DNA of 64,000 nt, from the NCBI GenBank assembly GCA_902792815.1, contig CADBAY010000015.1, positions 26,092 through 90,091 on the forward strand, written 5' to 3'. This document shows positions 55,567 to 64,000 of the stretch, one piece after another (positions within the stretch are counted from its first letter, which is position 1; each line of letters begins with the position of its first letter). The notes under the pieces were generated by a model. It was not told where the DNA came from. It ran no database searches and saw only the letters and a list, made by a program, of their open reading frames with translations. Origin of the DNA: an uncultured Bacteroidia bacterium. Lineage in GTDB: Bacteria; Bacteroidota; Bacteroidia; Bacteroidales; UBA932. A program made the position numbers and the translations under genes.

Positions 55567-55588
55567 TAGTCTTATGACACTAAAAATT

Positions 55589-56785
55589 ATGAAAAGATTA
55601 CTTGTATTCGCCATCCTGGCCTTCACGGCCATCAACTTAAATGCTACCGTACCACATCGTTCAAGCATTCCCGACATTCCCGGATACATAACCCTCAAGG
55701 GGGATTTCCATCTTCATACCAACTTCAGCGACGCCCAGGTCTGGCCGGTCACCCGCGTTGACGAGGCCGATTTTGACGGCCTTGATTTTATCTCCATCAC
55801 CGACCATCTGGATACTCATCATCAGCATATGGTCAAGGACTGGAGCGCCAATGTCAACCGCAATACTTCTTATGAAATGGCCGCCAAGGCCGCCAAGAAG
55901 TACGGCATAATGGTCATTCACGGCGCCGAGCTCACACGCGGCACAAGGATCTTCCCCGGGCACTTCAACACCCATTTCATTTCAGACGCTGACGCTATAT
56001 GCACGGCTGCCGAGGCCACCGACGGTCAATTCGGCTCCGATGAAGTCAAACAGGAAGAAACCGCCATCAAGGCAGGCCTCGCCGAGGCCAAGAAGCAGGG
56101 CGCATTCGTTACATGGAACCATCCCGACTGGGAGCAGCAGGCACCCAACGAAACAAAATGGTGGCCCATCCATACGGAACTTCTCAACGGTGGCCTGATA
56201 GACGGTATAGAGATTTATAACAGCTTCTCCGGCTTCGATCCCGAGGCATTCCACTGGGCAATGGAAAAAGACCTTGCCATAACCACGGGTACCGATGCCC
56301 ACAAGCCTATGTTCCAGTGGGTCGATTACGAAAAGGGCGAGTACCGCCCCATGACCCTGGTGTTTGCGAAAGAGCGTTCTCTCAAGGGCATCCGCGAGGC
56401 TCTTGACGCCCGCCGGACCGTAGCTTTCGCGGACGGCTGCATTTACGGAAAAGAAGAATTCATCAAGCCTCTTCTTGATGCCTGCATAAGCATAAGCGAC
56501 GTTAAGTTCTCGGAAAAGAAAATGACCGTCACGGTCAAGAACCTCAGTACCATTCCGGTTTGTTTTGTCAAGGCTCCAGGCAGCGAGATGGTGGTTTATT
56601 CCCGTCTGGGGCGTCTGAACGAGAAAGAGGAAATCAGTTTCTCCGTCAACGGCATCGACAGCCGCAAGCCTTGGAATGTATATGAATTCGATGTCAATTT
56701 TTATGTGACCAACTGGCTCACCGACACCGACACTCCTCTCAAAGTGTCGTACCACGTGAGTGTGCCGGCAAAATATCGCAAATAA
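55589..56785 (+). CDS. Secreted PHP-domain metal-dependent phosphoesterase-like protein
   Basis: 398 residues. Signal peptide MKRLLVFAILAFTAINLNA supports the ATG at 55589; an ATG at 55574 is in frame. PHP metal motifs in order: DFHLHTNFSD (about 33-42), SITDHLDTHH, VIHGAELTRG, NHPDW and GTDAHKP. Fold and ligands fit the PHP/PolC-type phosphoesterase family, and the C-terminal 120 residues form a separate beta-rich domain. Substrate unknown. It is followed, after 21 nt with no terminator, by the first 45-residue peptide gene, so it may belong to that unit. Confidence 0.88.
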   Translation: MKRLLVFAILAFTAINLNATVPHRSSIPDIPGYITLKGDFHLHTNFSDAQVWPVTRVDEADFDGLDFISITDHLDTHHQHMVKDWSANVNRNTSYEMAAKAAKKYGIMVIHGAELTRGTRIFPGHFNTHFISDADAICTAAEATDGQFGSDEVKQEETAIKAGLAEAKKQGAFVTWNHPDWEQQAPNETKWWPIHTELLNGGLIDGIEIYNSFSGFDPEAFHWAMEKDLAITTGTDAHKPMFQWVDYEKGEYRPMTLVFAKERSLKGIREALDARRTVAFADGCIYGKEEFIKPLLDACISISDVKFSEKKMTVTVKNLSTIPVCFVKAPGSEMVVYSRLGRLNEKEEISFSVNGIDSRKPWNVYEFDVNFYVTNWLTDTDTPLKVSYHVSVPAKYRK

Positions 56786-56806: not shown

Positions 56807-56944
56807 ATGATCAAAAAAACAGTTCCGGGAGTTTATTCAGCTCCAGAATGTGAATTTGCAGAGGAACTCTCCCAAGGAGTAATCTGTGAAAGCCCGGAAG
56901 GCACCACCGAGGATTTTGGTGCCGTTGAAGATTTCACCTGGTAA
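56807..56944 (+). CDS. 45-residue conserved peptide, copy 1 (paired with a surface lipoprotein)
   Basis: ATG at 56807, TAA at 56942-56944; begins MIKKTVPGVYSAPECEFAEE and ends EDFTW. Identical length and 17 shared positions with copies 2 and 3: M1 I2 K3 G8 Y10 P13 C15 E16 E19 C27 E28 S29 E35 D36 F37 F43 W45. No signal peptide or membrane segment, strongly acidic C-terminal half. The next ATG (56945) follows the stop directly, so translation of lipoprotein 1 may be coupled. I recognise no named family; similar short YxxPxxE...CxS proteins are, to my knowledge, common but uncharacterised in Bacteroidales. Confidence 0.85.
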   Translation: MIKKTVPGVYSAPECEFAEELSQGVICESPEGTTEDFGAVEDFTW

Positions 56945-56959
56945 ATGTTGAGCCTTATG

Positions 56960-59710
56960 AAAACAAAGTATTTTGCTTTAGCGGCGCTTGCATTTGCCGC
57001 TCTTGTCTCCTGTAACAAAGAAACCGCTACAGTTGAGCAGATTCCTGAGCCTTCGGTTCGCGAAGGCTATGTTCAGATTACTCTTTCTGCCGGTGTTGAC
57101 AACTCCACCAAGGCAGTTCTTGACGGCAGCAAAGTAGTATGGGCAGTAGGTGAAGAGGTCGCTGTCTATCCGGGCGAGGCCACTACAGCCGAAAAGTTCA
57201 CTGTCACGGCTGTTGACGGCAGCAACGTCACCATCTCCGGATCGGTGCCGGAAGGTACGACCAGCCTGGTTGCCGTTTATCCGTTTGATAATGCTGTCAG
57301 TCGTAATGGCAATTCCGTGAAGTTCAGTATTCCCGACTCTCAGAACATTCCCGATGATGGAAACATCGATCCTGAGGCTATGTCTTCTGCTGCGGTTTAT
57401 ACTGACTTAACCCAAAAGGCTCAGTTCAAGAACCTTTTTGCCTTGCTTGCATTTAACGTTGGCGAAATGGCAGATGCCAACATAGTCGGACTGCTTGCCA
57501 ATGACGATAAGGTTGCCGTTACCGGTAATGTTCAGGCTGCTCTTTCTGCCGATGCCGATCCCGTTATCACCGCCCCTGACGGGGAGGGTTGGAACGGTAT
57601 CGAGGTGTTTTCCGACAAGGCGTTTACGCCTAAAAAGACATATTATGCAGTTGTAGCCCCCTGTGCCGTCACCGGCTTTACCGTGGGTGTTGGAAACGAT
57701 AGTAAACTCGGTACTGTCACAAGCGATAAATCATTTACTCTGGAGCGCAACAAGGGCCTTGATTTTGGTGATGTTGCTTCCAAGGTAACCATGAAGTACA
57801 GCAAGATACACAATGCTGCCGAGTTGCAGGAATTCCTCTCAACAGCCCAGACTTATGCTGAGGGCGACGAGGTGGCTCTTGCCAACGACATTGACCTGAC
57901 CGGTGTAACCCTTACTTCCGCGGCATCCTGGGCCGGAACCTTTGACGGCTGCGGCCATAGCTTGAAGAACTGGACTTCCGCCGGCGTGGCTTTGTTTGGC
58001 ACCAATACTGGAACGATTTCAAATCTGAAACTTGACAAGACTTGCACCTTAAGCTATCCCGACCCGGATGCTGAAAAATCTTTCGGCTTTATCTGCTGCT
58101 ATAACGATGGCAAGCTCGAGAATTGCTCTAATGCTGCCAATATTACGTCTAACTGGGACTTTGTAATTGCCCGTGCTTATTATGGATCTCTTGTTGGACA
58201 GCCCACTGGGGACAAAAGTCTTATTGACGGTTGTTCCAACAGCGGAAACGTTACCCTTACATTTGCTGGGCAGAAAGATGTGCCTTACTTTGGCAATATT
58301 GCCGGACGCTCAATAGGTGCGAACGGTCAAGTAACAGTAAAGGATTGCACGAATACCGGCAAGCTCACTATTAAGAATACAGGAGTCGGTAAGAATCTTT
58401 ATGCTGGCGGCTTGTTTGGTACCGTTAACACCAGTGGTATTATCCAGAATTGCAAGAATTCCGGAGAAATATCTTATGAGTTCACTGCAGGAGGAACCGG
58501 GGCATATGTGAATCTAGGCGGAGTGGTTGGATATACTGCAGCCAAGATGATAGATTGTTCAAATACAGCAGCTGTTACTTACACCACATCTAAAGAGAAT
58601 CAGAGTACACGTCCCAATATCGGTGGTGTTGCCGGGTATGTGGCGGGCGGTATTACGGGCAGCAGCAATAGTGGCGATGTAAGCGTAACCGGTATGTTCG
58701 GCGCTACCAAAACAGGCTCCGATACTCCTAGCTCTGCCGGGTCTATGCCTTACCCGGCTATAGGTGGTGTTGCCGGTTGTGTTGGGCATGCCTCAAAGAC
58801 AGTTATATGTGACGATTGTCACAATACCGGTAAAGTTACTCTTGATGCTGCTATTGGGAGCTCTGGTTACATCCGCGTCGGTGGTGTTGGCGGATTTGTC
58901 AATGCCAGCATGAACGGTAGTACAAACAAGGGAGACGTGATTGTTACCTCCACTGGTAAGCAGACCGCGATTGGTGGCATCGGAGGGTATTGTGCTATTC
59001 ATAAGGCCGGAGAGCTTGAATGGAAAGATTGTATTAACGAAGGCGATATTACGTTATCTTCCGCTCAAGCTAATACCACTTTTAGCTACATAGGGGGCAT
59101 TGTTGGAGGAACTAATAGTGCATTTATCATAACTGGTTGTACCAACAAGGGTAAGATTACTACTACCTCACCTTCTCAGTTGAGGGTCGGCGGTATTGGT
59201 GGATTACCGAAAGTTATTGAAAACAGTGCTAATTATGGCGATATTTCCGTTACAGGTGCTACTTGGGGAAAGAAGGATGATTCCGCAGTAGATTATTCTG
59301 ATTATGCAAGTTCCGTCGGTTCAATCGCCGGCTTTGCGCAGGGCAATATCTTTGGATGTACCGTCAAATGTAGTGTTTCCAGCAATTCACAGGCTAACTC
59401 GTTTATAGGAGGCCTTGTGGGAGCCGTTGGAAATACTGCCCAGGACTTCTACAATATTGATATGGATGTGAACATCACAGCTTCCGAGGGGGTGTGTACT
59501 GGTATTATTATTGGCGGGCAAATAAACAACCAAAAAAATGTTAATATGGGTCTGGCAGGGCAGCCGATTAACATAGCTTCTTCCACCAAGGTTAACGGTG
59601 CTGCAGTTACCGGTATGGATGTAGCCTCCATTTCCAAACTCGTGGGCCATATAGAGACAGAATCCGGTCATGCTGGTTATATTCTCCTGACTAATGTTAT
59701 TCTGAAATAG
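56960..59710 (+). CDS. Large surface lipoprotein 1: fimbrillin-like N-terminus and GLUG-like beta repeats
   Basis: 916 residues. Start MKTKYFALAALAFAALVSC gives a lipobox with Cys19; an in-frame ATG at 56945 would add five residues. Residues about 35-280 resemble Mfa/fimbrillin-like domains (TKAVLDGSKVVWAVGEEVAVYPGE; VAVYPFDNAVS). From about 290 on, repeats of 40-60 residues follow the pattern DCxNxGxVTxxx...xxIGGVAGY, as in GLUG repeats, predicting a beta-solenoid. It closely parallels the lipoprotein at 60181-63861 in its first 130 residues. Probably surface exposed and adhesive or glycan-binding; inference only. The third gene of a unit with the PHP protein and peptide 1. Confidence 0.85.
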   Translation, partial: KTKYFALAALAFAALVSCNKETATVEQIPEPSVREGYVQITLSAGVDNSTKAVLDGSKVVWAVGEEVAVYPGEATTAEKFTVTAVDGSNVTISGSVPEGTTSLVAVYPFDNAVSRNGNSVKFSIPDSQNIPDDGNIDPEAMSSAAVYTDLTQKAQFKNLFALLAFNVGEMADANIVGLLANDDKVAVTGNVQAALSADADPVITAPDGEGWNGIEVFSDKAFTPKKTYYAVVAPCAVTGFTVGVGNDSKLGTVTSDKSFTLERNKGLDFGDVASKVTMKYSKIHNAAELQEFLSTAQTYAEGDEVALANDIDLTGVTLTSAASWAGTFDGCGHSLKNWTSAGVALFGTNTGTISNLKLDKTCTLSYPDPDAEKSFGFICCYNDGKLENCSNAANITSNWDFVIARAYYGSLVGQPTGDKSLIDGCSNSGNVTLTFAGQKDVPYFGNIAGRSIGANGQVTVKDCTNTGKLTIKNTGVGKNLYAGGLFGTVNTSGIIQNCKNSGEISYEFTAGGTGAYVNLGGVVGYTAAKMIDCSNTAAVTYTTSKENQSTRPNIGGVAGYVAGGITGSSNSGDVSVTGMFGATKTGSDTPSSAGSMPYPAIGGVAGCVGHASKTVICDDCHNTGKVTLDAAIGSSGYIRVGGVGGFVNASMNGSTNKGDVIVTSTGKQTAIGGIGGYCAIHKAGELEWKDCINEGDITLSSAQANTTFSYIGGIVGGTNSAFIITGCTNKGKITTTSPSQLRVGGIGGLPKVIENSANYGDISVTGATWGKKDDSAVDYSDYASSVGSIAGFAQGNIFGCTVKCSVSSNSQANSFIGGLVGAVGNTAQDFYNIDMDVNITASEGVCTGIIIGGQINNQKNVNMGLAGQPINIASSTKVNGAAVTGMDVASISKLVGHIETESGHAGYILLTNVILK

Positions 59711-59722
59711 TTTTTTTCGATT

Positions 59723-59860
59723 ATGATTAAAGAAGCATTCTCCGGAGCCTATTTAACTCCTGTATGTGAAATTGCAGAGAAACTCATCGAGGGCTTGATC
59801 TGCGAAAGCCAAGATGCCGTCATCGAGGATTTCGAAGACGGGGGAGAGTTTAATTGGTAG
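59723..59860 (+). CDS. 45-residue conserved peptide, copy 2 (no lipoprotein directly downstream)
   Basis: ATG at 59723, TAG at 59858-59860; begins MIKEAFSGAYLTPVCEIAEK and ends GEFNW. Same length and invariant positions as copies 1 and 3. It is 12 nt after lipoprotein 1 and is followed by a terminator at 59905, not by a lipoprotein gene, so it is either an orphan left by recombination or works with the upstream lipoprotein. Confidence 0.82.
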   Translation: MIKEAFSGAYLTPVCEIAEKLIEGLICESQDAVIEDFEDGGEFNW

Positions 59861-59904
59861 GGATGCTGTATATGCGGCTTTGATTGAAAGTCCGTTTTCT
59901 CAAT

Positions 59905-59951
59905 TCGGGAGGATAATTTGATGCTGTCGGGCATTTAAATTATCCTCCCGA
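59905..59951 (+). terminator. Terminator after peptide gene 2
   Basis: A perfect 15-bp stem (59905-59919 with 59937-59951), 17-nt loop, followed by the T-rich ttattttgttc. It separates the two cassette units. Confidence 0.8.
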
Positions 59952-59955
59952 TTAT

Positions 59956-59985
59956 TTTGTTCTTGCTCGAAATTTTTTATTTTTG
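59956..59985 (+). promoter_or_regulatory. Promoter of peptide gene 3 (-33 and -7 elements)
   Basis: TTTG at 59956-59959 and TATTTTTG at 59978-59985, 18 nt apart, the spacing of Bacteroidota promoters. The ATG of peptide 3 is 44 nt further. This is the only site in the window where both elements are clear. Confidence 0.65.
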
Positions 59986-60029
59986 CATCTTGGCGAATAA
60001 GATTGATTATCATTATTAACCATATTATT

Positions 60030-60167
60030 ATGATCAAAAAACCTTTGTTTGGAGCATACGCTGCTCCGGTTTGTGAAACAGTAGAGGAGAGCCTCGCAGC
60101 GCTTCTTTGTGAAAGCCCCGATGCAAGCACCGAGGATTTCACCGAGCAAGAGTCTTTCGACTGGTAA
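60030..60167 (+). CDS. 45-residue conserved peptide, copy 3 (paired with a surface lipoprotein)
   Basis: ATG at 60030, TAA at 60165-60167; begins MIKKPLFGAYAAPVCETVEE and ends QESFDW. Two cysteines at 15 and 27 as in the other copies, and the CES and EDF blocks are kept. The lipoprotein frame opens 1 nt after its stop. Own promoter at 59956-59985, so peptide and lipoprotein 2 form a two-gene transcript. Confidence 0.85.
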   Translation: MIKKPLFGAYAAPVCETVEESLAALLCESPDASTEDFTEQESFDW

Positions 60168-60180
60168 AATGAGAGTTGCT

Positions 60181-63100
60181 ATGAAGAAGTATTTTGTCTT
60201 TGCAGCACTCGTACTTGCTGCCGCAGTTTCCTGTACCAGGGAACTTGCTACCGAAGAAATCGTAGGACCCAAGAAGGGCTACGTGCAGATTACACTTTCC
60301 GCTAATTGCGATGTAGATTCCAAGGCTGTTCTCGACGGCAAGAAGGTCGTATGGAGCGTCGGCGAAGAAGTCGCCGTGTTCCCCGGCGGGAATGGAAGCG
60401 CAGAGAAGTTTACGGTCAGCGCCGTTGACGGCTCCTCCGTTACCATTTCCGGTTCGGTACCTGAAGGAAGCACTACTTTTGTGGCCGCTTATCCTTTCAA
60501 GAACGCCGTATCTTGCTCCAGCAATGTGGTGACGATGAAAATCGGTGACCAGACTGTTTCCGGTACCGCGACTGTCGATCCTGACGCCCTTTCATCTGTA
60601 GCCTATTTCGAGAGCGTGGCATCTAAGCCGACATTCTACAACACTGTGTCGCTGGTTTCTTTCCAGGTGGCCCAGGAAGGCTTCACCAAGGTGACTTTTG
60701 CTCCCCTTACCGGATCGTTCGGCGGCACCGTGCAAGTGACTGCTTCTGCAAGTGCAGCCCCTGAAGTCGCTTTCCCTGTAACCCCTGCTGCAACTCCTGC
60801 AGTAGGCGTGGCGGTGTCATGTGCTGAAGGCTTTGCGGTAGGAACCACCTACTATGCTGCAGTTGCTCCCGGCCAGTTCAGCGGTCTAAATGTAACATCG
60901 GTTAAAGATGGCAAATCTGCCCAGAAGGTCAGTGAAAACGGTGCTACCATCGCCCGCGGCGCCATCCTTCCCCTCGGCGACATTTCTCCGTTAGGCGGCT
61001 GGAAGTACGGTGTGATCACCAACGCCCAGGAGCTTAAGGAATTCCTTGCCGACGCTTCCAATTATACCGATAGCGACGTTGCCGAACTTGGCAACGATAT
61101 CGACTGCACCGAGGTTGAGATTGTCCCTGCCGAGTCTTATGCAGGTACATTTGACGGCAAGGGCTTCACTATCAAGAATCTTGCTGCCACTAACGCACTG
61201 TTTGCCAAACTCGCCGACACCGGTGTCGTTAAGGATGTCAATATCGACGCCACTTGCGCTATCAATTGGACCGAGGCTATCTCCGACATGACTGGAATAT
61301 CGTTCATCGTGTCTTCTTCCGCAGGCTTGGTCAAGGATTGCAATGTCGCAGGTAAGATTACGGTTAAGTCCGGTGACGCCGGCCGTATTTATTGCGCAGG
61401 TGTGGTCGGTGAATCAGAAAAGGGTATAGTCGAGGGCTGTAAGTTTACAGGCTCTATCGACGTTGAACTCACTAATAACTCTGCATCCTGCAGCGCCATA
61501 GCCGGCGTTGTTGCCCGTATTGGCAATAAGGAAATGTCCGGGAAAACCATTGTTAAGGATTGCGAAAATACAGGTTCCATCAAGTTCCTTTTCAGCGGAC
61601 CCTCCGCAGGAATGAAGAAGTTCGGTATCGGCGGTGTAGTGGGCCAGACACCTTCTGTCAAAAACGCAGACAGGGATCATGGAATCATTGAGAACTGTAT
61701 CAACCGTGGTGATATCGAGTGGAGCTATCCTGCAGGCGGTTCCGACAGCTATCCTGCCCTTGGCGGTGTGGTCGGTATAGTAGAAGGCCAGCTTAAGTCT
61801 GCAAAGAACTATGGAAAGGTTACCTACCATGGCGGCACGGACGTTGCCGCTACCGATGCGAGCATAGGCGGTGTGGCAGGTTATGTCACCCTTGGTGCAT
61901 CTGATTGCCATAACTACGGAGAAATTGTTGTCGATGGCACGCTTGCCGGCGGTACTTCAATGAACCAGAGCGGCGGTAATACGTCTTTCACTACAATAGG
62001 CGGCGTATTCGGCAATGCCGGCCCTTACGCAGCTGACAATACTAACTGTGCAAGCAAGGGAGTACTTGTTGAGAACTGCAGCAACGAAGCAAGCTTTACC
62101 ATTAAGCCTTATATGGTTACTACCGGAGGCCCTCAGATGTGCTTCGGCGGTGTTATCGGTGCTTCTACTGCAAATGTCAAAAACTGCCAGAACAAGGGTA
62201 AAATTGTCTTCGAGTCCCAGATCAGGACTATCAACGCAGGAGGTATTGTGGGTTTCCTGGAAGCTGATATGGAAGACTGTACCAACAGCGGTTCCGTGAC
62301 TCTGAAAGGCGCTTCTGCAAGCCATCCGGCAGCTATCACTGTCCAGGCATACTTTGGCGGTGTGATAGGACAAGTCACAAAGAAGTCGGTAATTAAGAAT
62401 GTCAAGAACACCGGGGATGTGACCATTGAAGATATGTACAGTACTGGTGATCCTGCCAACACTACTTATAATATCCTCTCTTACATCGGCGGTATTATGG
62501 GTAATTACAAGGGCGGCATTACCCTGAACGGGGCTGAGAATAGCGGTGCTGTTACAAACAAATGTAATATACCTGTTGTGCTCGGCGGTATCGGCGGTGC
62601 GCTCAACGGTTCGCTTAGCAACCTCAAGAACAGCGGTGCTGTTAATAATCAGACCAGCTATTGCTCCACTATAGTGGGCAAGGAGCCTGAAGTTGGCGGT
62701 ATTGCCGGTTATTCCTATGGCAATTACACCAATGTAGAAAGCACAGGTAACATTACCAATGCGGCTGCCGGCGGTGCCACCGGAGGTATAGTTGGCGGTT
62801 ATAATTCCGACAAGGGTAATGTCTCCAACTGGAACGCTTGCAAAGTAGATTGCACAATCAGCAGTGCTGCTACTGCAGGCGCATTCCTCGGCCGTTTCCG
62901 TTATAACAGTGCATCTGACGACAAATACAATTTTGCCACTATCAACGCCGGTGTTGACGGCGGTATGGAAGTTGCCGGCGGTGCAGCATCTCTGCCTTTG
63001 GTCGGCAACATCAACGGAGCACATGTGTTCAACTGCGTCAACCTTGTGGTTAACGGCGTGGCTACCGTCCAGTTCGAGGAAGACCTTGAGAACAATAAGT

Positions 63101-63861
63101 TCACTTATGCCGGCAAAGAGTATCCTATTATCAAACTGGCCGACAACAGGTATTGGATGGCAGCTCCTCTTGCCTATGTTCCCGCCGGCAAGAAAGTCTC
63201 TTCCAACCCTGTTGAGGATACAGGTATTTGGTATACTTACACCATCGACACAGATAACAAAACCGCTATCCCTTCTACGGACAGGACTGATGCTTATTTG
63301 TATGATTTTGCTACAGCTTTGGGCGTGGAGAGGAGTTCCATAACGTATTCCACCAGCTCTGCTCCTACTGAAGGAAACTACAGAAGTTTCGAAGGCAGCC
63401 AGGGTATCTGCCCTCCGGGCTGGTATATTCCTACCCGTGCTGATTTCCTGAAACTGGTTGGCAATTCTAACAAAGATCAAGGTGAAAGTGCCGCCATTGA
63501 TGATAATACTGCAGTTTACTATGAGGCAGATTTCAAGGGGTCTTCTATAGCTCGATTCAATGCCGAAGGATGGAACTTTTCTTTCCTCGGGGCCCGCAAC
63601 AAGACCAGCACTTCCGCTACTGGATCTTACAATGCCACTGATATCAAGGCCACTTTCTGTTCTGTTCCCGAGTGGTTAGGAAAGTGCGCTTTGAATCAGA
63701 TCATGACTTCTTCGGCATACCAGCCCAATGCGACTGGTACCAGTTTCCAGATTTTTGTGCTGATGTCCACATTCTCTGCATCATATGAAGGGCGTCTTAA
63801 CTTGAGTTACGCCCAGTTTGTTCAGGGTGTGGAAGTCCGCTGCATCCGTAAGGCAGACTAA
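60181..63861 (+). CDS. Large surface lipoprotein 2: fimbrillin-like N-terminus, GLUG-like repeats, FISUMP C-terminus
   Basis: 1226 residues. Start MKKYFVFAALVLAAAVSC (lipobox Cys18); an ATG at 60169 adds four residues. Residues 20-150 are very similar to lipoprotein 1 (KGYVQITLSANCD, SKAVLDGKKVVWSVGEEVAVFPG, VTISGSVPEGSTTFVAAYPF). The middle (about 280-930) is a run of GGVxGxxx...NCxNxGxI repeats, probably a beta-solenoid. The last 250 residues differ: ILADNRYWMAAPLAYVP-type start, GICPPGWYIPTRADFLKL and a final VEVRCIRK match the Fibrobacter major paralogous (FISUMP) domain. Likely outer-membrane surface display; ligand unknown. An IS element begins about 45 nt downstream. Confidence 0.87.
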   Translation: MKKYFVFAALVLAAAVSCTRELATEEIVGPKKGYVQITLSANCDVDSKAVLDGKKVVWSVGEEVAVFPGGNGSAEKFTVSAVDGSSVTISGSVPEGSTTFVAAYPFKNAVSCSSNVVTMKIGDQTVSGTATVDPDALSSVAYFESVASKPTFYNTVSLVSFQVAQEGFTKVTFAPLTGSFGGTVQVTASASAAPEVAFPVTPAATPAVGVAVSCAEGFAVGTTYYAAVAPGQFSGLNVTSVKDGKSAQKVSENGATIARGAILPLGDISPLGGWKYGVITNAQELKEFLADASNYTDSDVAELGNDIDCTEVEIVPAESYAGTFDGKGFTIKNLAATNALFAKLADTGVVKDVNIDATCAINWTEAISDMTGISFIVSSSAGLVKDCNVAGKITVKSGDAGRIYCAGVVGESEKGIVEGCKFTGSIDVELTNNSASCSAIAGVVARIGNKEMSGKTIVKDCENTGSIKFLFSGPSAGMKKFGIGGVVGQTPSVKNADRDHGIIENCINRGDIEWSYPAGGSDSYPALGGVVGIVEGQLKSAKNYGKVTYHGGTDVAATDASIGGVAGYVTLGASDCHNYGEIVVDGTLAGGTSMNQSGGNTSFTTIGGVFGNAGPYAADNTNCASKGVLVENCSNEASFTIKPYMVTTGGPQMCFGGVIGASTANVKNCQNKGKIVFESQIRTINAGGIVGFLEADMEDCTNSGSVTLKGASASHPAAITVQAYFGGVIGQVTKKSVIKNVKNTGDVTIEDMYSTGDPANTTYNILSYIGGIMGNYKGGITLNGAENSGAVTNKCNIPVVLGGIGGALNGSLSNLKNSGAVNNQTSYCSTIVGKEPEVGGIAGYSYGNYTNVESTGNITNAAAGGATGGIVGGYNSDKGNVSNWNACKVDCTISSAATAGAFLGRFRYNSASDDKYNFATINAGVDGGMEVAGGAASLPLVGNINGAHVFNCVNLVVNGVATVQFEEDLENNKFTYAGKEYPIIKLADNRYWMAAPLAYVPAGKKVSSNPVEDTGIWYTYTIDTDNKTAIPSTDRTDAYLYDFATALGVERSSITYSTSSAPTEGNYRSFEGSQGICPPGWYIPTRADFLKLVGNSNKDQGESAAIDDNTAVYYEADFKGSSIARFNAEGWNFSFLGARNKTSTSATGSYNATDIKATFCSVPEWLGKCALNQIMTSSAYQPNATGTSFQIFVLMSTFSASYEGRLNLSYAQFVQGVEVRCIRKAD

Positions 63862-63905: not shown

Positions 63906-64000
63906 ATGAACCCCGAAAGTTAGACAAAAAACTTTCGGGGTTTTGTTATGCTAAAAAAGCACACTTATGCAGATCGACTCAAGTATATGAAGATGCTTGA
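63906..64000 (+). mobile_element. Left end of an IS3-type insertion sequence (runs out of the window)
   Basis: TGAACCCCGAAAGTTAGACA at 63906-63925 is the kind of terminal sequence seen in Bacteroidota IS3-family elements. It forms a 12-bp hairpin (63909-63920 with 63931-63942) that can also act as a terminator and block read-in. A transposase frame starts at 63948. The right end is not visible, so boundaries and target duplication cannot be confirmed. Confidence 0.75.
63948..64000 (+). CDS. IS3-type transposase OrfA, N-terminal fragment (partial)
   Basis: Only 17 codons are inside the window: MLKKHTYADRLKYMKML. The basic start with HTYxxRLK is typical of the helix-turn-helix OrfA of IS3/IS150-like elements. 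Identity rests mainly on the adjoining terminal repeat. Confidence 0.65.
   Translation, partial: MLKKHTYADRLKYMKML

Follow-up and report, generated by a model that had tools for sequence, protein, structure and literature searches.

Short YxxP peptides encoded directly upstream of lipoprotein genes in Bacteroidales, a family of probable precursors of modified peptides

The stretch of DNA analysed here (64,000 nucleotides (nt) from the genome of an uncultured member of the Bacteroidales, hereafter the window) encodes three peptides of 45 amino acids (aa), which are likely to be precursors of ribosomally made, post-translationally modified peptides (RiPPs), and two large lipoproteins. The five genes are the following:

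56807..56944, + strand: putative precursor peptide gene 1 (45 aa), with YxxP at residues 10-13 and a core predicted to run from C27 (56885) to W45
56957..59710, + strand: lipoprotein 1, 917 aa from the ATG at 56957 (921 aa from an in-frame ATG at 56945, closer to the peptide stop codon); lipobox, fimbrillin-like N-terminal domain, GLUG repeats
59723..59860, + strand: putative precursor peptide gene 2 (45 aa), without a lipoprotein gene on its 3' side
60030..60167, + strand: putative precursor peptide gene 3 (45 aa), with a core predicted to run from C27 (60108) to W45
60181..63861, + strand: lipoprotein 2, 1226 aa from the ATG at 60181 (1230 aa from an in-frame ATG at 60169, closer to the peptide stop codon); same N-terminal domain, GLUG repeats, Fib_succ_major domain

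The core boundaries of peptides 1 and 3 are placed by analogy with the linear polyphosphorylated peptides (LPPs) of Bacillota, discussed below. Three reading frames of 45 codons with 17 identical positions, two of them directly 5' of large lipoproteins sharing an N-terminal domain, had been reported in a preliminary description of this DNA, and both statements were confirmed in the window sequence. Indeed, (i) M1, I2, K3, G8, Y10, P13, C15, E16, E19, C27, E28, S29, E35, D36, F37, F43 and W45 are invariant across the three peptides, (ii) the likely start of lipoprotein 1 lies 12 nt past the stop codon of peptide 1, and that of lipoprotein 2 lies 13 nt past the stop codon of peptide 3, and (iii) the N-terminal domain and the GLUG repeats are common to both lipoproteins, Fib_succ_major being found in lipoprotein 2. 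Peptide 2 begins 12 nt past the stop codon of lipoprotein 1, and on its 3' side there is a terminator-like hairpin instead of a lipoprotein gene. Pfam and NCBIfam scans of the three peptides gave chance-level matches at most.

The likeness of the trio goes beyond chance, because a profile built from the three peptides picks up further copies in the genome of the window (G000; other G numbers denote relatives and L numbers sequence stretches) and in its relatives. The search was made in two rounds, with this profile and then with a profile of 27 peptides that included the three. The 27-peptide profile matched 91 of the 121 congeneric genomes at E<=0.01, with a maximum of 24 matches in one genome, and G000 holds at least 22 copies (18 matches at E<=1, plus five peptides upstream of related lipoproteins). 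In all, 122 matches were listed, namely the best of the genus down to about 8e-8 (G063:C110, G062:C10, G047:C13, G123:C63 and G130:C12 being left out), three more within the stretches examined and all 18 of G000; the neighbour count given below rests on 120 copies (without G069:C9 and G080:C22), which represent 117 distinct peptides. A profile search of PDB with these 117 peptides gave zero matches.

The 117 peptides range from 36 to 55 aa. Tyr and Pro of YxxP occur in every one (117/117), the final Ser of a second motif, [C/A]-x-S, is kept in 115/117, and the spacing from Tyr to Ser is 19 residues in 113 of the 115 peptides that fit the pattern. Two residues before this Ser, at the second Cys position of the trio, Cys (102), Ala (13) or Leu (2) is found, and the middle residue of the motif is most frequently Gln (43/115). 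From [C/A]-x-S to the C-terminus the median length is 19 residues and the net charge is negative in 115/115 peptides, and W, F or Y occurs within the final four residues of 103/117. The first Cys (C15 of the trio) is present in 31/117 peptides; since the length also varies, a fixed length and the first Cys characterise only the trio. The strict length and cysteine spacing, previously read as signs of selection, thus hold for the trio and not beyond it, the second Cys position alone being mostly kept, and the conserved feature of the family is instead YxxP with a Ser 19 residues on and Cys or Ala two positions before that Ser. A disulphide between the two cysteines was ruled out by the same count of the first Cys, and toxin-antitoxin and signal-peptide readings were dropped by reasoning alone. 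YxxP peptides whose C-terminal tail reads 'YRsNLW/YRNSLW-GDD(E)' were also observed in L183, L187, L202, L205 and L208 (G231, G413); no large open reading frame (ORF) lies close behind them in the scanned stretch, and they form a dispersed variant without lipoprotein.

A lipoprotein-like ORF, called with a simple lipobox rule devised for this analysis, lies at -4 to 39 nt past the peptide stop codon in 112 of the 120 copies, versus 5 of 612 other ORFs of 36-55 aa, and 11 of 195 ORFs of at least 150 aa, at the same loci under the same rule, so that the proposed association with lipoproteins extends well past the window. The eight misses comprise three copies at contig ends, peptide 2, the first of two tandem peptides and three copies without lipoprotein. 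Conversely, the N-terminal domain of the window lipoproteins is matched at 28 places in G000 (E<=0.01), 17 of them with an upstream YxxP peptide and 11 without such a peptide within 250 nt in a pattern search. Past their N-terminal part the partner lipoproteins are diverse: no Pfam family occurs in more than five of the 58 that were scanned (BACON 5, Beta_helix_3 4, Glug 4, Lcl_C 3, Mfa_like_1 2). Nor are all partners large solenoids, because the one in L009 (G004:C70) has 270 aa and a thioredoxin-type look (CGWC; labelled by eye). The near one-to-one pairing, together with the lack of a signal sequence in the peptides, would suit a cytoplasmic cognate partner of the following lipoprotein, such as a chaperone or an export helper. 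This reading is very unlikely in view of the diversity of the lipoproteins and of the 11 places without a peptide, and it would leave unexplained the linkage of the peptides to genes for a kinase, a protease, a RiPP recognition protein or element (RRE) and an exporter, described below.

Selection acts on these peptides at the protein level, as had been proposed. The ratio of nonsynonymous to synonymous changes (dN/dS), pooled over 11 non-overlapping pairs with few changes, is 0.35 overall, 0.44 before [C/A]xS and 0.25 from it on, though peptide 1 alone, compared with its counterpart in the relative G062, gives 0.64 (peptide 2, 0.33; peptide 3, 0.05). The same three peptides are encoded in G062 (L073), each with a lipoprotein, that of 951 aa lying 12 nt past the counterpart of peptide 2. 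In G000 the lipoprotein gene next to peptide 2 has been lost, and peptide 2 itself is retained. Comparison of the two genomes shows peptide 2 to be identical over its C-terminal 16 residues, despite three nucleotide changes, and to differ at 14 of the 29 residues before them; this sharp break inside the gene possibly reflects recombination at that point.

Leader ORFs of Bacteroidetes show a peak of stop-to-start distances at 11-14 bp (Korolev et al. 2016, PMC4833913), and the distance is 12-13 nt in 35 of the 112 pairs found here. In both cases a short ORF ends some 12 nt ahead of a structural gene, and the peptide genes could accordingly be cis-acting leader ORFs, whose translation, with re-initiation about 12 nt past the stop codon, would set lipoprotein expression, with no function for the peptide as such. 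Such a role is improbable, since the peptides found here have a conserved amino-acid sequence and are tied to maturation enzymes. Indeed, (i) the C-terminal part is also under selection, YxxP is invariant and the Ser is nearly always kept, (ii) peptide 2 persists without a structural gene on its 3' side, (iii) in L374 (G000:C24:38200-39700) two differing YxxP peptides are encoded in tandem, 181 and 25 nt upstream of one lipoprotein, and (iv) a peptide of G139 directly precedes maturation genes. Points (ii) to (iv) also fit poorly with a regulator of the lipoprotein, as suggested earlier, if it acted only in cis.

In lasso and LPP systems it is a PqqD-type RRE that binds the YxxP leader (PMC13381572), and such an RRE was therefore looked for in G000. 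A single PqqD match is present, on a contig other than that of the window, in a run of genes coding for an HPr-kinase-like kinase, a signal-peptidase-like protease, the RRE and an MsbA-like ABC exporter. In brief, (i) SGTGKSTH, NDD and PWSGKT are invariant in 8/8 aligned kinases, which match HprK_rel_A (TIGR04352, HprK-related kinase A) below its curated cut-off of 200 bits (E 3.1e-7 and 29.8 bits in G350; 0.0041 and 16.3 bits in G000); (ii) GxSMxP, HR and GDG of the protease are kept in 9/9 aligned sequences, that of G000 included, and the G350 protease matches TIGR02228 at 1.4e-10 (41.3 bits versus a cut-off of 51.85) and PF00717 at 2e-6, no model being matched by the G139 protease; (iii) the RRE matches PF05402 above cut-off, with N35 and D73 invariant in 17/17 aligned sequences; and (iv) the exporter carries ABC_membrane and ABC_tran, its best NCBIfam match being TIGR02203 (MsbA, 3.8e-69, below cut-off). 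A nucleotidyltransferase (PF14907) is encoded inside the corresponding clusters of G350 and G139. TIGR04352 kinases together with PqqD make up a system already described; the kinases found here score far below the cut-off of that model. Similar clusters are present in two Candidatus Cryptobacteroides loci, with kinases 56 and 64 % identical. Searches for family peptides in the 19.5 kb surrounding the G000 RRE (E<0.5), and in 30 PqqD loci of the genus to a distance of 1.5 kb (E<=1), gave none. Longer YxxP peptides, Pro/Gly-rich in two cases and of another precursor type, adjoin or overlap a PqqD gene at L225 4707-4925, L234 5261-5497 and L235 5574-5702.

The YxxP leader and the relation of the RRE to B1 proteins (TfuB1, E 1.7e-5; TbiB1, 0.027; NF033530 weak, below cut-off) could also point to true lasso peptides, with cores cyclised into a threaded ring. 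Paeninodin-like lasso clusters encode a kinase and a nucleotidyltransferase (PMC8498205), and the likeness covers the RRE (B1), an HPr-kinase homolog, a nucleotidyltransferase and an exporter (PMC8498205, PMC7533575, PMC5067487). Lasso formation is nonetheless extremely unlikely here: PF13471, the lasso B2 leader protease, has no match in G000, no Asn-synthase-like ORF or cyclase was noticed among the ORFs of the 19.5 kb around the RRE (by reading, with no model search), and the predicted cores begin with Cys or Ala. In another genome of the genus, a PqqD gene lies between a sulfotransferase gene and an Asn-synthase-like gene (L135, G013:C1), perhaps a lasso peptide cluster.

Within the genus, PqqD is found in 101/121 genomes, and the peptides are present in 81/101 PqqD-positive versus 10/20 PqqD-negative genomes (p 0.009; 35/47 versus 1/6, p 0.010, when completeness is at least 90 % and contamination at most 5 %), these and the later co-occurrence p values ignoring the relatedness of the genomes. 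Furthermore, peptide and maturation genes are physically linked elsewhere. Among the PqqD or peptide loci that were examined, G350 encodes a peptide, a lipoprotein, the kinase, the protease, the RRE, the nucleotidyltransferase and the exporter on one strand within 6.6 kb; G233 encodes a peptide, a lipoprotein, the exporter, the RRE and the kinase, the protease not being identified there; and in G139 a peptide gene lies 38 nt before those for the kinase, protease, RRE, nucleotidyltransferase and exporter, without a lipoprotein. At most of the other PqqD loci examined alongside, no YxxP family peptide was seen nearby.

A scan of up to 9 kb on each side of 80 named kinase loci, the best 80 of 533 relatives, gave 8 with a YxxP peptide at >=14.6 bits, using a profile that included the linked-cluster peptides, and 6 at E<0.01 with a genus-only profile. 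A lipoprotein-like gene follows the peptide in 7 of the 8 loci. Linked pairs are found in Proteiniphilum sp. UBA1403, a metagenome-assembled genome of Muribaculaceae, Ca. Phocaeicola excrementigallinarum, the uncultured Bacteroidales L269 and L292, Sphingobacterium humi (two pairs) and Bacteroides sp. 51 (about 5 kb away, on the other strand). The Proteiniphilum lipoprotein carries Mfa_like_1 and Fib_succ_major, the latter also found in lipoprotein 2 of the window. In a permuted-motif control over the 80 loci, which is a weak one, Y..P scored 7 and was tied with R..R at the top of 400 pairs (mean 0.9). Of the three roles suggested for the peptides in the preliminary description, that of a precursor is the one favoured by the RRE-kinase-protease-exporter cluster and its linkage to peptide-lipoprotein pairs.

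The LPPs of Bacillota (Popov et al. 2026, PMC13381572) are produced by a discrete RRE, an HprK-like kinase, a SipW-like protease, a nucleotidyltransferase and an MsbA-like exporter from YxxP precursors, with an RRE-dependent cut before A-Q-S and several phosphates added to that Ser; in the account given there they are restricted to Bacillota and their role is left open. A PqqD-type RRE, an HprK-like kinase, a SipW/archaeal-type signal peptidase and an MsbA-like exporter are likewise found here, together with a nucleotidyltransferase in the G350 and G139 clusters, and the peptides share the YxxP leader, an A (or C)-x-S at the start of the core with Ser at core position 3, the short length of the precursors and acidic/aromatic cores. 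In LppB, N33 and D70 hold YxxP (PMC13381572). N35 and D73 of the RRE found here align to a Gly and a Gln of PDB chain 9x90_B with the 37-residue separation that G42 and Q79 have in PbaB1; taking this chain to be PbaB1, N35 and D73 would correspond to N33 and D70 of LppB.

It is therefore likely that the three window peptides are RiPP precursors working like LPPs, and the same processing steps are predicted because the protease, the RRE and the peptide motifs are kept. By this analogy, the YxxP part of the leader would dock on the single PqqD-type RRE of G000, encoded on another contig, the signal-peptidase-like protease would cut just before [C/A]-x-S, the HPr-kinase-like kinase would phosphorylate the conserved Ser at core position 3, a nucleotidyltransferase may decorate the phosphate, and the MsbA-like exporter would release an acidic core some 19 aa long. 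One shared machine probably serves the peptide genes of G000, and would then act in trans on many dispersed precursors. Cleavage after the Ser by an A-x-A-like rule had been considered and was dropped on the LPP data for a cut before [C/A]xS, the sequence alone not deciding between the two.

Several observations weigh against this reading. The leaders found here lack HQ and FET of the LPP pattern YxxPxVLxHQxIxFETxxS, and the spacing from Tyr to Ser is 19 residues, not 18. For the G000 protease, Pfam and NCBIfam gave no match at E<=0.01, and the two nucleotidyltransferase genes of G000 lie elsewhere in the genome, away from the RRE cluster. Half of the PqqD-negative genomes of the genus (10/20) still carry peptides, including G111 at 91 % completeness, 20 of the 101 PqqD-positive genomes are without a peptide at E<=0.01, and order-wide the association is not significant, PqqD being found in 10/12 peptide-positive versus 173/283 other genomes (p 0.14). 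Moreover, at the score applied, 72 of the 80 kinase loci lack a linked peptide. As the leaders have neither HQ nor FET, the family is likened to the LPPs and not filed among them. It further differs from them in its host phylum (Bacteroidota), in the dispersal of precursors away from the enzymes in this genus and in the pairing with lipoproteins.

These three features, the dispersed precursors being many and apparently served in trans, seem to be new. Capsule loci, and no lipoproteins, are mentioned in the portions of PMC13381572 consulted, and its main text contains no word beginning with Bacteroid. No account of the Bacteroidota form was found in one open-access library. A lipidated RiPP from Chryseobacterium is reportedly the subject of one study (PMC12636315).

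As nearly every precursor gene directly precedes a lipoprotein gene, the two products would be made together and may act together; that they act jointly at the cell surface is a tentative proposal, slightly short of an even chance. A wider proposal, a surface repertoire in which the shared machine makes more than 20 modified, probably phosphorylated peptides, with the lipoprotein encoded next carrying, anchoring or recognising each of them, for attachment, signalling or kin recognition, is doubtful. If the precursor reading is true, LPP-type chemistry would be common in gut and rumen Bacteroidales, with more than 20 precursors in a single genome and one shared machine, and a class of short genes without above-chance sequence matches in Pfam, NCBIfam or PDB would be accounted for. 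The pairing names a concrete candidate partner and makes the role of such peptides testable.

Other features of the window were located by eye:

59906..59959, + strand: terminator-like hairpin, 14-bp arms followed by a T-rich stretch; its loop exceeds the limit of the hairpin scan
59978..59985, + strand: candidate -7 element TATTTTTG, weak; counterpart in G062 TAATTTTG
63911..63946, + strand: terminator-like hairpin past lipoprotein 2, absent from the hairpin-scan output

The first hairpin is also present in G062, ahead of peptide 3. The TATTTTTG element weakly resembles the -7 element of Bacteroides, the consensus of which is TAnnTTTG. A PHP/CehA-like metallohydrolase with a weak DUF5001 match is encoded at 55574-56785, ending 21 nt 5' of peptide 1, and possibly belongs to the same operon. 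A possible ORF starts at 63948 and runs off the end of the window (64000).

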